A DNA stretch of 52,865 bases from Polyangiaceae bacterium. Its GTDB lineage: Bacteria > Myxococcota_A > Polyangia > Polyangiales > Polyangiaceae. Positions 26,182 through 32,786 of the stretch are shown piece after piece. Each line of letters opens with the position of its first letter. Within the stretch, counting starts at the first letter, position 1. The translations under genes were made by a program, and so were the position numbers. The stretch spans positions 1 to 52,865 of the forward strand of contig JAPYTK010000013.1 in assembly GCA_029941785.1 (NCBI GenBank), given 5' to 3'. The notes below the pieces were generated by a model. It did no database searches. It was not told the DNA's origin and saw only the letters and a list, made by a program, of their open reading frames with translations.

Positions 26182-27693
<1,512 letters not shown>

Positions 27694-27734: not shown

Positions 27735-28262
27735 TCAACGTAAGACGAGTCGGAACTGGACGACGATCTCGTCGGCCACCCGGAAGGCCCCTAGTGGGCC
27801 CCGGATCGGCGCTACGCCGAGACGCTCCAATGACAATTCGATCTGGCCAGTGAGTGCTCCGTCCTGCTCGTCGTGCTTCAAGTCGAAACGGATGCGCTGT
27901 TGGCCGCGCGGTGCACGGACCACGCCTTGACCAGCATCGCGAGTCTTGCCGTTCACTCGGACGAGGACTTCGGGTCCAAGAAGAATGTCGTTCTGGACCT
28001 TGTCGGTGATTTGGGCGTGCTCTCGGGCAGACAGCACGCCCTCATCAACCGCCCCGGCCCGCAGCACGCCGACGACGGTCAAGCCGACAATTGGGAACCG
28101 AAGCGAAGCCGACCAATTCTGCTCGTCGTCCTCGAGGCGAACTTGGCCCTCGAATTGTCCGGCGCGCAACTCGAGATCGTGAGCCAGTCGGGACATGAGC
28201 CCCTCGGCGCGAGTGCGAACGACGACGGTGCTTTCGTCGGGGTTCACTCGACGCGTAGTCAT
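27735..28262 (-). CDS. YceI-like domain protein
   Basis: 175 residues of mostly alternating polar and non-polar strands, as in the YceI lipocalin-like barrel: VVVRTRAEGLMSRLAHDLEL (the Hxl/S-HD start), then SASLRFPIVGLTVV and LGPEVLVRVNGKTRD. YceI proteins bind long polyprenyl-type lipids. No signal peptide is seen from the chosen start. The ATG at 28262 has GAGG eight nt upstream; extending to 28364 adds non-conserved residues. It is the last gene of the lipoprotein/pseudo-ABC block, separated by 109 nt that include a 12-bp palindrome GGCTCGCGAGCC (28340-28351). Confidence 0.72.
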   Translation of the reverse strand: MTTRRVNPDESTVVVRTRAEGLMSRLAHDLELRAGQFEGQVRLEDDEQNWSASLRFPIVGLTVVGVLRAGAVDEGVLSAREHAQITDKVQNDILLGPEVLVRVNGKTRDAGQGVVRAPRGQQRIRFDLKHDEQDGALTGQIELSLERLGVAPIRGPLGAFRVADEIVVQFRLVLR

Positions 28263-28371
28263 AAGGGACACCTCGACGTGTTCGCCCCGTCCGTCAAGCA
28301 CCCACGCGGCGCAGAAGCGGCCGACAACAAAGGAGACGTGGCTCGCGAGCCTATCGTCACGCAAGATAAGC

Positions 28372-29118
28372 TCATTGTCGGATCCGTACTGCCGCCACGA
28401 GCAGTAGCGCGCCGACGGACACGACCAGCCAGGCGGTACTCTGTTGCTGACTAAGTCCCAACAATTCGGAGCTGCCCAGCAAGTGCGCCAACGGTGCTCG
28501 CGGCAAGCACGCGGCCGCCCATCCGGTGCCCGTGCCGATCGTGAAGTCCAGAACCAATGGCAGCCATCGCCACCGGCCCGCTTTGCCCCAACCGCTCGCG
28601 ACGAGAAACCAAGTCATGTAGCTAAACGCACCCAACGCCGCGATCCACGTGCTCGTCCATACATCAGCCAACAACCCTGGGCTTCCCCCATACGCGACGC
28701 CGAGACCCGCCCCGACCAGTACAGATGCCGCAGCCGCCATGAGCAGTCCGGCGCCGGTGATCAGGCCCAGGGCGGTGACCCGCCGTGAAGCACCGTACCG
28801 GGCCAAGCACCAGACGCTGTGGTCCAAACGCTGGTTTCGTGTGAACAGGCGGGCACTCGCGAAGGCACCGAGGGGCAACACAAAAGATGCCATGATGTAG
28901 AGGGTACGATTGGCCGCGAGCCCTGCCCCGAGGGACCGCTCCACGCCTGCCGTGACGAGCACGACAGCCGCGGAGAGCCCGAACAACCAACGAAACTCCG
29001 GGGCCCTCCCCCGATGCCACGCCAACTTGGCGCCAGCGCGAAACGCCATCCAGCATGCGCTCAAACCCACCGCAGCGGAAACTCCTGCCGCGGGCATGGC
29101 CGTCGCGGGCTCAGCCAT
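28372..29118 (-). CDS. Multi-pass membrane protein, permease-like subunit
   Basis: 248 residues with about six hydrophobic segments: 13-30 (weak), 45-63, 75-95, 115-145, 155-180 and 225-245. A charged loop (FTRNQRLDHSVWCLARYGAS) between the third and fourth resembles the coupling loops of ABC-2-type permeases. It starts with an 8-nt overlap with the ABC-ATPase-like gene, so the two are probably translated together and may form one complex. No sequence motif identifies a substrate. Confidence 0.7.
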   Translation of the reverse strand: MAEPATAMPAAGVSAAVGLSACWMAFRAGAKLAWHRGRAPEFRWLFGLSAAVVLVTAGVERSLGAGLAANRTLYIMASFVLPLGAFASARLFTRNQRLDHSVWCLARYGASRRVTALGLITGAGLLMAAAASVLVGAGLGVAYGGSPGLLADVWTSTWIAALGAFSYMTWFLVASGWGKAGRWRWLPLVLDFTIGTGTGWAAACLPRAPLAHLLGSSELLGLSQQQSTAWLVVSVGALLLVAAVRIRQ

Positions 29119-30079
29119 GGGTCCCGGCTCGCTGCGCCCGCTGCGCATGAATCGTCGCTTCGAGTTCTCGTCGGGTAGGCACGGCCGGAGACAGCCGCGT
29201 CACGGCTGAACCCAGTGACGCGGCGAGTTGTGCCACGAGGCGCGCTCCGTCCTCGAGCTGAGCCACCTCAATCGTCACGCTCGCCTCGTGCATTCGCTCC
29301 GACCACTTTACCCCGTGGACCATCTCGTGTTCGCTCAACGCCGCCGCCAAGGCGCGAGCATCGCCGCCAACACGGGGATCCAAGCTGACCTTCAGCCGGC
29401 CGTAACGAACCGCGTGACGCAGGGGCTCCCCTCCGTGCAACTGCCCCGCCGCAAGAAGATAAATCGCATCGGCGATCTCAAAATAGGACCCCGCCTGCGG
29501 CGCCGTGATGACGACGACAGTGCCCCGGCTCGACAAGGCACGAAGCACGTCTGCCGCGGCCGGTTCGTCCGGCCCAGATTGCAGGAACTCGGGCCCATAA
29601 CGAAACGGGTCGTGCAGCAACAGCACGGCTGGCTCGGCCAGAGCCAGAGCCAAACGCCACGCGAGCTGGAGCCTCTGGCCAGCCGTCAACAAGTCGATCC
29701 TCAGGTCGTGTAGACTGCCCGGCGCACCGATCGGGGCGAGGTCCTCGGCGGCGTCGGGATGCCAACGCCGGAAATGATCGAGGGCATCGGATACCGTCGT
29801 TCCTTCCGGCAGAGAGGCATCCACGTCGAGCAAGCCGATCCGGCGGCGGACGCTCGCGTCCCGATGAGGAAGTGCCTCCCCCAACCTCACCTCGCCACGC
29901 CGTGGCGCGCTACGGCCACTCGCCACGGCAAGCAGCGTCTCAATGCCATCGTCGAGTTCGCCGATCACCAGGTGAATGCCCGACCCAAAGACTCCGGTCA
30001 CGCCGTTGAGCTTCGCCGGGGCCGCCGCGCCTCGCGGCTCGCTGGCCCACACGGCGTCGAAGTGCAAGGCGGCGCTCAT
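29111..30079 (-). CDS. ABC-ATPase-like protein lacking catalytic motifs (pseudo-ATPase)
   Basis: 322 residues laid out like an ABC ATPase but with every catalytic motif altered. The P-loop counterpart (residues 40-49, GELDDGIETL) has lost the invariant Lys, Ile taking its place. The Q-loop position (near 85, LLDVDASLPEG) has no Gln. The signature is LTAGQR rather than LSGGQ (131-136). Walker B ends HDP instead of DEP (152-158). The switch His is missing (VVVITAP, about 188-194). It probably cannot hydrolyse ATP in the normal way and may act as a structural or regulatory partner. Residues 225-322 form an extra C-terminal domain, as in some ABC-2 ATPases. The ATG at 30079 overlaps the previous stop (ATGA). 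Confidence 0.75.
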   Translation of the reverse strand: MSAALHFDAVWASEPRGAAAPAKLNGVTGVFGSGIHLVIGELDDGIETLLAVASGRSAPRRGEVRLGEALPHRDASVRRRIGLLDVDASLPEGTTVSDALDHFRRWHPDAAEDLAPIGAPGSLHDLRIDLLTAGQRLQLAWRLALALAEPAVLLLHDPFRYGPEFLQSGPDEPAAADVLRALSSRGTVVVITAPQAGSYFEIADAIYLLAAGQLHGGEPLRHAVRYGRLKVSLDPRVGGDARALAAALSEHEMVHGVKWSERMHEASVTIEVAQLEDGARLVAQLAASLGSAVTRLSPAVPTRRELEATIHAQRAQRAGTHG

Positions 30080-30741
30080 GCGGCGCTCACCAAGCGACTC
30101 AACCAGGCATCGATCAACGTCGGGAGAGACAGTCCGTCCCCGAGAACATCGGCCACCAGCCACGGGATGATGACGAGCGCCGCCATCCAGCCAGGACCGC
30201 GGCGCCCAGCGAGATGACCGCATGCGCTCGCGAGAAGGCCAACCACTCCTCCGGTCATGAGGCACACACCCAGGATCCCCGCGACGAGGCCAGCGGCCCT
30301 AGCGTGTACACCATGATAAAACACCGCGGCTGACAGCAGAAGTGCGGGCAGACCAAGGACTCGGATCGCCTCGAGCACCGACGCGACAAATCGCGCACGA
30401 CGTAGCTCGTCTCGTCCTACGCCCCGACATGCGAGCATGTCCGTTACGCCTTCGGTCCGATCCCGCCCCTCCGGGTCGTGAGCCAAGACCAACGCGACCG
30501 GCCCAAGACCGATCCATACGAGCGCCGTCAGCGTCGGTCGAATCAGCTCCGCCACATCACTTCCAGCGCGGATGACGGCCCACGCGCCCGCGGCCGCGAC
30601 AACCCATGCGGTGCCACTTGCCGCACGAACGATCCACGAGCGTTGCGCCTGCCAGCGGCACAGTGCGATGACCGACGACCTCGGCCACCGGGAAGATGCC
30701 GACACCGACCGGCGCTCCGAGATCGCGGGCGCCTCGCTCAT
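30076..30741 (-). CDS. Multi-pass membrane protein, second permease-like subunit
   Basis: 221 residues. A basic N-terminus (about 30 residues) is followed by about six hydrophobic segments between residues 35 and 215. A loop after the second pair, HDPEGRDRTEGVTDMLACRG, is charged and resembles the cytoplasmic coupling helix of ABC-2 permeases. Start and stop overlap both neighbours as ATGA, so it sits inside a tightly coupled unit with the pseudo-ATPase and the second membrane protein. Permease identity is inferred from layout; no family signature is certain. Confidence 0.7.
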   Translation of the reverse strand: MSEAPAISERRSVSASSRWPRSSVIALCRWQAQRSWIVRAASGTAWVVAAAGAWAVIRAGSDVAELIRPTLTALVWIGLGPVALVLAHDPEGRDRTEGVTDMLACRGVGRDELRRARFVASVLEAIRVLGLPALLLSAAVFYHGVHARAAGLVAGILGVCLMTGGVVGLLASACGHLAGRRGPGWMAALVIIPWLVADVLGDGLSLPTLIDAWLSRLVSAA

Positions 30742-32786
30742 TTGTCGCCTGTGTCCCGGCTCCCAACAACCTCGACGGGCTGCCCTTGCACCTTGCTGAA
30801 GCGATGACCCGAAGCGACGTCGAACAACTCTTCGGTCAGCGCCCCATCCGGCCACCGCACGGCAACCTCAGCAGTGCAAGCCGTACCCAAGCCAAAGTGC
30901 AGGCGCAGATCCTGTTGAGCACCGTACTGGCCGTGCCCACCACCGATCTCCTGCGTCCGCACGATCCCATCCGGGGTCGTCACTGTGACACGCGCACCGA
31001 TGGCAGAACGATTGCTGCCGTCCGCGCCCTGAAGCGCGAGCTGAAACCAGTTGCCATCTTGACCCATGATGTTCTCAAAGACGCGCGCCTGCATCGTCGG
31101 ATAACAGTCCGTCTCGTTCCCACAACGCATGTGGGAATGGCCGACGATGATGTCGAGGTCGCCGTCGTGGTCGAAGTCCGCCACCGCAACGCCATGACTG
31201 CGATTGTTTTCGATTCCCAACTCGTAGGGAACGAGCTGAAACTTCAGAGTCTGATCATGATGAAACAGACGCCCGCGACTGCCAGGGTAATCCGAGTCAC
31301 CGATGTAGATGTCGAGCAGACCGTCGTTATCAAAATCGAACAAGGCACCGCTCATGTCACCGTCGTTCCAACTGATCGCATCATGATCGCGGATCAGTCC
31401 GGTCTGCTCGTTGCCCGGTCTCTCGAAACGCACGTCAAACTCGCCCGTGTTGACGAGAATCTCGCTCGGATCGGAGGAACTGCCCACGTCCCAATGCACG
31501 ATCTCGGTGGTGAACAGATCCATGTCTCCGTCGTTGTCCACGTCCCCGCACATGGTTCCCCCGCTATTGCCACCTAGGCTAAATAGCTCGCGGCTCGTGC
31601 TGTGGTCCCACCGGAAGGCATCCCCAGGCTGTTCACACTTGATGTACATGGGCGGCGGAACGCCGTCGCAATCTTGGGCTTGAGGGTTCAATTTACAGTA
31701 GCACCGCGCCGATTCGTCCTCGGTCCAGTCGGTGCGATGGTCGTAGGCGTAACCCGACGCGACGCTTCGATTGACGAAGGTCCAACCTCCGTCGGGTCCG
31801 GTCGCCTGCCACAAGTGGTTCGGTGCGCGCCCATAGGATGAGGCCAACAACTCCAGGTTGCCATCATTGTTGAGGTCACAGGCCAACGCTGACCAGCCCC
31901 AACTATGGGCGCGACCCTCGTTGAGGGTTTTGAGGTCGTTCCAGCCTTGCGTCACCAGGGCGGTGGCCCCTGTCACGTTTGTGAAGCTGCCTTCGCCGTG
32001 CCCCCAATACAGCTGATCCTGGGCCCGTTGATTCCCCCAGGCGTTCTGCGGCACCCAGAGATCGACGACCCCATTTCGATCATAATCGACGAAGCTCGCG
32101 CCGGCCGGCACGTCACCGAGCGGGACGCGCAGCGCGCTATCAGCAGGGCCCAAGGAGAAGGTGCCATCGCCTTGATTCAGCAGGATCTCGCTCGTCTCTG
32201 TTTTGGCAGATCCGGGACCATCGCTGCGCCCGGTGTATGCGTCGAGATCACCGTCATTGTCCACGTCAGCAAATGCCACAACTTGAAAGGGCCGACCCGT
32301 ATCGGGATCGGCGTCGTCGCGTTTCGCAAGAAACCCCGACGAGAGCGTCACGTCCTCGAATCCGCCCTTCCCCGTGTTGCGCATCAACCACGTACGACGA
32401 ACCGGACAGGTTGTTTCTTCCGGACAGCTGTCGTTCGCACAGCACGCCGGCGCCGTGAACAAGTCATCAGGTGCATCCGTCATCATCCGCACCAGGACAT
32501 CGGTCCAGCCATCACCATCAAAGTCAACCGCTTGAAAACGTTGTCCCTCCACGCCCACGAAGTTCCACTCGGTGGTCACTTCGCGAAAAATGGTCCCCGC
32601 CCCATCCCAGCGCGACCCCGCCGTGCACAGCGGCTCTACGCCACCCCCAGAGCCACCCGCGCCGCCGCCACCACCGGAAGAAGTCGCGACCGCAGCATCG
32701 TCCCCGCCGCATGCTGACGCCAAGAATAAGACGCCCATCTTTAGGCCGGCGAGAACACCACGAAAAGACACCCGACAACAGCTCAT
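30738..32786 (-). CDS. FG-GAP/VCBS-repeat lipoprotein with ASPIC/UnbV domain
   Basis: 682 residues. A lipoprotein signal (VLFLASACGG, Cys at about 26) and a Gly/Ser linker are followed by repeated calcium-binding-type motifs of FG-GAP/VCBS repeats (VDFDGDGWTDVLV, ADVDNDGDLDAY, CDLNNDGNLELL, GDVDNDGDMDLF, FDFDNDGLLDIY, ADFDHDGDLDII). The C-terminal 100 residues match the ASPIC/UnbV domain (SAIGARVTVTTPDG, QEIGGGHGQYGAQ). Such proteins form seven-bladed propellers at the cell surface or in the outer membrane. Several Cys pairs suggest disulfides. Its stop is shared with the first membrane subunit (ATGA), linking it to the pseudo-ABC unit. Confidence 0.88.
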   Translation of the reverse strand: MSCCRVSFRGVLAGLKMGVLFLASACGGDDAAVATSSGGGGGAGGSGGGVEPLCTAGSRWDGAGTIFREVTTEWNFVGVEGQRFQAVDFDGDGWTDVLVRMMTDAPDDLFTAPACCANDSCPEETTCPVRRTWLMRNTGKGGFEDVTLSSGFLAKRDDADPDTGRPFQVVAFADVDNDGDLDAYTGRSDGPGSAKTETSEILLNQGDGTFSLGPADSALRVPLGDVPAGASFVDYDRNGVVDLWVPQNAWGNQRAQDQLYWGHGEGSFTNVTGATALVTQGWNDLKTLNEGRAHSWGWSALACDLNNDGNLELLASSYGRAPNHLWQATGPDGGWTFVNRSVASGYAYDHRTDWTEDESARCYCKLNPQAQDCDGVPPPMYIKCEQPGDAFRWDHSTSRELFSLGGNSGGTMCGDVDNDGDMDLFTTEIVHWDVGSSSDPSEILVNTGEFDVRFERPGNEQTGLIRDHDAISWNDGDMSGALFDFDNDGLLDIYIGDSDYPGSRGRLFHHDQTLKFQLVPYELGIENNRSHGVAVADFDHDGDLDIIVGHSHMRCGNETDCYPTMQARVFENIMGQDGNWFQLALQGADGSNRSAIGARVTVTTPDGIVRTQEIGGGHGQYGAQQDLRLHFGLGTACTAEVAVRWPDGALTEELFDVASGHRFSKVQGQPVEVVGSRDTGDK

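Follow-up and report, generated by a model that had tools for sequence, protein, structure and literature searches.

Work driven by ATP is the defining property of ABC transporters. In the known degenerate ABC transporters, a nucleotide-binding domain (NBD) has suffered motif losses and stays essential to the complex (PMC7756269). In Pdr5 (K to C), ABCG5/G8 and TAP, these losses are distributed so that one site remains canonical (PMC7756269). NBD1 of Pdr5 lacks both the Walker A Lys and the switch His (PMC7756269). One canonical composite site is kept in such transporters because an intact partner NBD belongs to the complex. A second point of reference is NosDFY, a type V ABC system in which NosF is the NBD, furnished with a regulatory (R) domain, and NosY is the transmembrane subunit, present as a homodimer; the ATP site of NosF is intact. 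Intact motifs are also found in the DrrA/CcmA/ABCA-type ATPases (TIGR01188, TIGR01189), whose NBD core is similar to that of the protein described here. No precedent for a fully degenerate ABC-2 complex or for a myxobacterial pseudo-NBD was found in the open-access literature searched.

The locus considered here lies in a stretch of 52,865 nucleotides from a Polyangiaceae bacterium (the window). It consists of three genes, referred to below as the triad:

30076-30741, minus strand: permease A, a multi-TM protein of 221 aa, invariably upstream of the pseudo-ATPase (conserved position, about six hydrophobic segments)
29111-30079, minus strand: pseudo-ATPase, an ABC NBD of the NosF/ABCA type, 322 aa, in which the catalytic motifs are degenerate (open reading frame, AlphaFold2 model, structure and profile matches, motif counts)
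28372-29118, minus strand: permease B, an ABC-2/NosY-fold transmembrane subunit, 248 aa (AlphaFold2 pLDDT 96, NosY structure match)

The original prediction described the middle gene as an intact frame with the codon usage of its neighbours and with both ends overlapping other genes, and each of these points holds. The open reading frame starts with ATG and is unbroken, and its GC3 of 0.75 is that of the window (mean 0.756 +/- 0.044). Its overlap with permease A is 4 bp long (30076-30079); that with permease B, counting from the ATG of permease B, is 8 bp long (29111-29118).

The flanking genes had been called permease-like, a description that fits permease B better than it can be said to fit permease A. 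Sequence searches of Pfam, NCBIfam and the PDB assigned neither of them to a family, and permease B was recognised through its fold only. Its AlphaFold2 model matches NosY with Z 19.3 (217 aligned residues, 2.8 A) and also matches ABCG membrane domains, and its transmembrane part is well conserved; on this model, permease B has the ABC-2/NosY fold. Permease A resembles it in size, is likewise a membrane protein and keeps a constant place. Profile comparisons of permease A with permease B and other ABC-2 permeases are not significant and show likeness in register only; permease A is a putative ABC-2 permease. The membrane part of the triad also departs from NosDFY in its composition: two different membrane proteins are found in place of the NosY homodimer, and NosD is missing from the conserved set.

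Taken singly, the window pseudo-ATPase is barely recognisable by sequence. It scores 16.6 bits against PF00005 (E 0.012), short of the gathering cut-off of 25, and its match to the CcmA model (E 4e-5) is far under every curated NCBIfam cut-off. Among 66 homologues, 48 match PF00005 at E <= 0.01, and the nearest NCBIfam models of the family include TIGR01188 and TIGR01189 (55/66 and 45/66 members, respectively). A profile of the family matched 463 PDB sequences, with ABCA7 at 5e-52 and NosF at 3e-33. The AlphaFold2 model built with the 66 homologues has a pLDDT of 91, and nearly all of the top 50 rows of the structure comparison are ABC NBDs (Z 19.6-23.4). Alignments to NosF chains span 284-289 of about 300 residues (model residues 3-315, Z 21.6-22.5), and NBD-plus-R-domain stretches of ABCA4 and ABCA3 align likewise. 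From these alignments, the C-terminal 90 residues correspond to the regulatory domain of NosF and ABCA proteins:

29123-29398, minus strand: C-terminal domain of the pseudo-ATPase, roughly residues 228-319, a match to the R domain of NosF and ABCA proteins (NosF alignments)

As modelled, the window protein is thus an ABC NBD of the NosF/ABCA type with a regulatory domain. The structural superposition that the original prediction proposed as a check, and the profile search that it named as a possible refutation, both come out in its favour, and a non-ABC fold is rejected by the family profile together with the NosF structure match.

The likeness to NosF does not extend to the ATP site, where the Walker A Lys, the Walker B Asp and the switch His are lost. 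Motif positions were read from a residue-level alignment of the window protein to a solved amino-acid ABC ATPase:

29936-29962, minus strand: Walker A remnant GELDDGIET, residues 40-48, with Ile46 at the Lys position; family consensus GxPxDGT (alignment)
29822-29824, minus strand: Q-loop Gln position, Val86 (alignment)
29672-29689, minus strand: signature remnant LTAGQR, residues 131-136 (alignment)
29606-29623, minus strand: Walker B remnant LLLHDP, residues 153-158, Asp to His and Glu to Asp (alignment, family counts)
29501-29503, minus strand: switch His position, Ala193 (alignment, family counts)

In this alignment, GPSGSGKST of the reference Walker A is replaced by GELDDGIET, VFQQ of the Q-loop by LDVD, LSGGQ of the signature by LTAGQ, FDEP of Walker B by LHDP (His156 for Asp, Asp157 for Glu) and TH of the switch by TA. 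The A-loop aromatic residue and the D-loop are also unrecognisable. The statement that all catalytic motifs are lost holds in the strict sense for Walker A, the Q-loop, the Walker B Asp and the switch His. The absence of the Walker A Lys, the Q-loop Gln and the switch His, and the HDP ending of Walker B, are all borne out, whereas the signature is near canonical: it is the least damaged motif of the window copy, retaining the second Gly and the Gln of LTAGQ. The Glu to Asp change in Walker B is a conservative one.

Whether these losses are peculiar to the window copy was addressed by aligning 80-83 members of the pseudo family with 25 ordinary ABC ATPases of the genome that contains the window. 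The Walker A Lys is present in 0/80 members against 25/25 ordinary proteins, and no member of the 80 shows the GxxxxGK[ST] pattern; the switch His occurs in 0/83 against 22/25. The Walker B Asp and the second Gly of the signature are each kept by 10/81 members and by 25/25 ordinary ATPases. Chance and artefact are excluded by the Walker A contrast between the family and the ordinary ABC ATPases. Homologues of about 30% identity, found when 59 relatives were searched by tblastn, likewise lack the Walker A Lys. In a quick maximum-likelihood tree, one branch separates pseudo from ordinary proteins (SH-aLRT 99), and the window copy sits on a long branch; the pseudo-NBDs form one clade, probably of single origin. 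For the pseudo-NBD, most dN/dS values inside Polyangium and Sorangium are about 0.2-0.45, in the range seen for both permeases, and by this measure the pseudo copies are under purifying selection. A local mutation, a decaying gene or an assembly error would leave a different record from intact frames, purifying selection and the same losses in about 80 homologues; nothing was found in its favour, and it can be set aside with near certainty. The gene is accordingly a maintained one, as had been proposed.

The P-loop has also acquired a conserved form of its own, GxxxDG(T). Its fifth residue, two before the Lys position, is Asp in 65/80 members of the pseudo family and Ala, Ser, Cys or Val in ordinary ABC proteins, and the Lys position itself is mostly Thr (41/80). 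Conservation of this derived Asp makes the loop look re-used, not decaying. Such a pattern would be expected if the GxxxDGT loop, together with the Walker B residues (His in 26/81 members at the Asp position, Glu kept in 75/81 and replaced by Asp in the window copy), formed a novel binding site, whether for an unusual nucleotide or for some other ligand, making the protein a ligand-gated ABC derivative. However, the Walker B Asp position is highly variable (H, E, D, F, Y or V) and several pseudo-NBD lineages lack DGT, so that this explanation appears highly doubtful.

The pseudo-NBD belongs to a gene set that is characteristic of one family. A profile search found permease B in exactly one copy in 86/108 genomes of the Polyangiaceae, with weak matches in 2/75 other genomes of the order and essentially no further occurrence among 282 genomes of the phylum. 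Genomes with matches include Sorangium cellulosum, Polyangium, Minicystis rosea and Byssovorax, all of the Polyangiaceae. Of the fetched loci long enough to show it, nearly all have permease A, pseudo-NBD and permease B in this order on a single strand. According to a home-made gene caller, a start-stop overlap of exactly 4 bp joins permease A to the NBD in 48/56 cases and the NBD to permease B in 51/74 cases. In two genomes, pseudo-NBD and permease B are fused in one open frame (L022:3502-5196, plus strand; L105:7700-9673, plus strand). The conserved fold, gene order and new P-loop together indicate that the subunit still does something.

A working ATPase hidden in the operon was considered and rejected, since no intact ABC ATPase recurs in the neighbourhood of 87 triad loci. 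The triad thus differs from the known degenerate transporters in co-encoding no intact NBD and in that the pseudo-NBD signature is usually lost too. An intact NBD could instead be encoded elsewhere and pair with the pseudo-NBD to form an asymmetric transporter driven by ATP, comparable to Pdr5, TAP or CFTR but with its active subunit in trans. The best-scoring intact relative of the pseudo family in the window's genome is an orphan DrrA/NosF-type ATPase (G000:C102:2885-3967, locus L159) with intact motifs, including a GPNGSGKT Walker A. It has no adjoining ABC-2-like permease: in 5/6 sampled relatives and in the window's genome, none of its neighbours is a multi-TM gene, and in the sixth relative the multi-TM gene beside it encodes an unrelated-looking 521-aa protein on the opposite strand. 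Retention of the Walker B Glu in 75/81 pseudo-NBDs and the near-canonical LTAGQ of the window copy make it conceivable that a pseudo-NBD and an intact partner together form a composite site.

The distribution of this candidate partner extends well beyond that of the triad. Its orthologue is present in single copy in 167/183 genomes of the order, including most other families, whereas permease B is almost absent from the other families that carry it. In families without the triad, the orphan ATPase lacks a permease neighbour as well (six sampled). Being order-wide, it is not tied to the triad. In addition, the signature Gly that the partner's site would need is lost in most pseudo-NBDs, and, going by the motifs, pairing with an intact NBD would in most cases still not yield a consensus site. 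The phylogenetic profile itself speaks neither for nor against pairing; a partner in trans is the leading rival explanation, though an unlikely one. The search for a second intact ATPase, proposed with the original prediction, was successful in that one exists elsewhere in the genome, but it shows no specific tie to this operon.

Two neighbours in the window lie on the same strand as the triad:

27735-28364, minus strand: conserved gene, 209 aa, downstream of permease B, without a Pfam match (homologue after permease B in most of 24 loci)
30738-32738, minus strand: FG-GAP/ASPIC protein with a lipobox-like N-terminus, upstream of permease A (4 bp overlap with the permease A start)

The 209-aa protein has a YceI-like look, by eye only. 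The FG-GAP/ASPIC protein is not a recurring neighbour at the other triad loci. Across these loci, genes near the triad vary by lineage, with DUF362 proteins in 27 loci and VWA/TSP3-type secreted proteins in 11. The DUF362 protein of the window (26182-27693, plus strand) shows about 70% identity between genera and is much better conserved than the triad. An FtsX/MacB-like permease adjoins the triad in 21 loci (e.g. L023:5902-7557, plus strand), and a Pfam scan detected no ABC domain in the L023 protein.

Because these neighbours vary by lineage, no single substrate is indicated. This bears on passive or secondary transport, in which permeases A and B would form a facilitator or a gradient-driven exporter and the pseudo-NBD would serve as a plug or assembly factor. 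Such a role would agree with the NosY fold, the conserved transmembrane part and the missing ATP site. However, only the triad itself is universal across the loci, and no substrate-linked neighbour common to all of them was found. To our knowledge, no protein of ABC-2 fold is a secondary transporter, which also counts against this possibility; we regard it as improbable.

In other loci, a second degenerate ATPase accompanies the triad. At 21 triad loci, permease A adjoins a divergently transcribed gene for a membrane protein of about 770 aa whose C-terminal part is of the NtrC-type AAA+ kind:

L031:10787-13081 (plus strand), L039:6272-8593 (minus strand) and 19 other triad loci: NtrC-like pseudo-AAA+

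The C-terminal part matches NtrX with E 5e-13. GxxxxGK is found in no member, most carry DG in place of the Walker B DE, and the GAFTGA region is missing. This gene is absent from the present window. Two unrelated dead ATPases as neighbours are a striking coincidence, one that hints at signalling rather than transport.

The reading that best accounts for these observations, to which we assign a probability of roughly 0.55, is that the pseudo-ATPase belongs to a type V (NosFY/ABCA-like, ABC-2) complex as an NBD without catalytic activity, kept as a structural or regulatory subunit of an ATP-independent gate or scaffold. Judged from its motifs, the pseudo-NBD is predicted not to hydrolyse ATP. 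Losses on the Walker side and, mostly, on the signature side fall in one gene, and a homodimer would therefore be left without a consensus site. The ATP site would have been lost once, in an ancestor that preceded the radiation of the Polyangiaceae, and the pseudo-NBD would have been retained since then in a structural and regulatory capacity. It most likely forms homodimers via its NosF-like regulatory domain, and such a homodimer would dock at the cytoplasmic face of a putative permease A/B heterodimer. Lacking ATP hydrolysis, the A/B complex would act not as a pump, but as a gate or scaffold that relays conformational signals across the inner membrane.

A bolder form of this proposal can be put forward only tentatively, at somewhat less than even odds. 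It holds that the ABC-2 (type V) complex lacks any functional nucleotide site across the whole family, that the P-loop was rebuilt once to GxxxDGT and then kept, and that the complex is an ATP-independent signalling or gating machine, placed in one lineage beside a membrane-bound, dead NtrC-type AAA+ protein.

Many Polyangiaceae genes of this kind may have been named 'ABC transporter ATP-binding protein' by similarity, and these are probably mis-described. The triad offers a natural system for separating the role of the NBD-TMD architecture from that of ATP. More broadly, a single-copy, widely kept complex in which the sole NBD encoded alongside is dead would demonstrate that an ABC architecture can persist for uses beyond ATP-driven transport.
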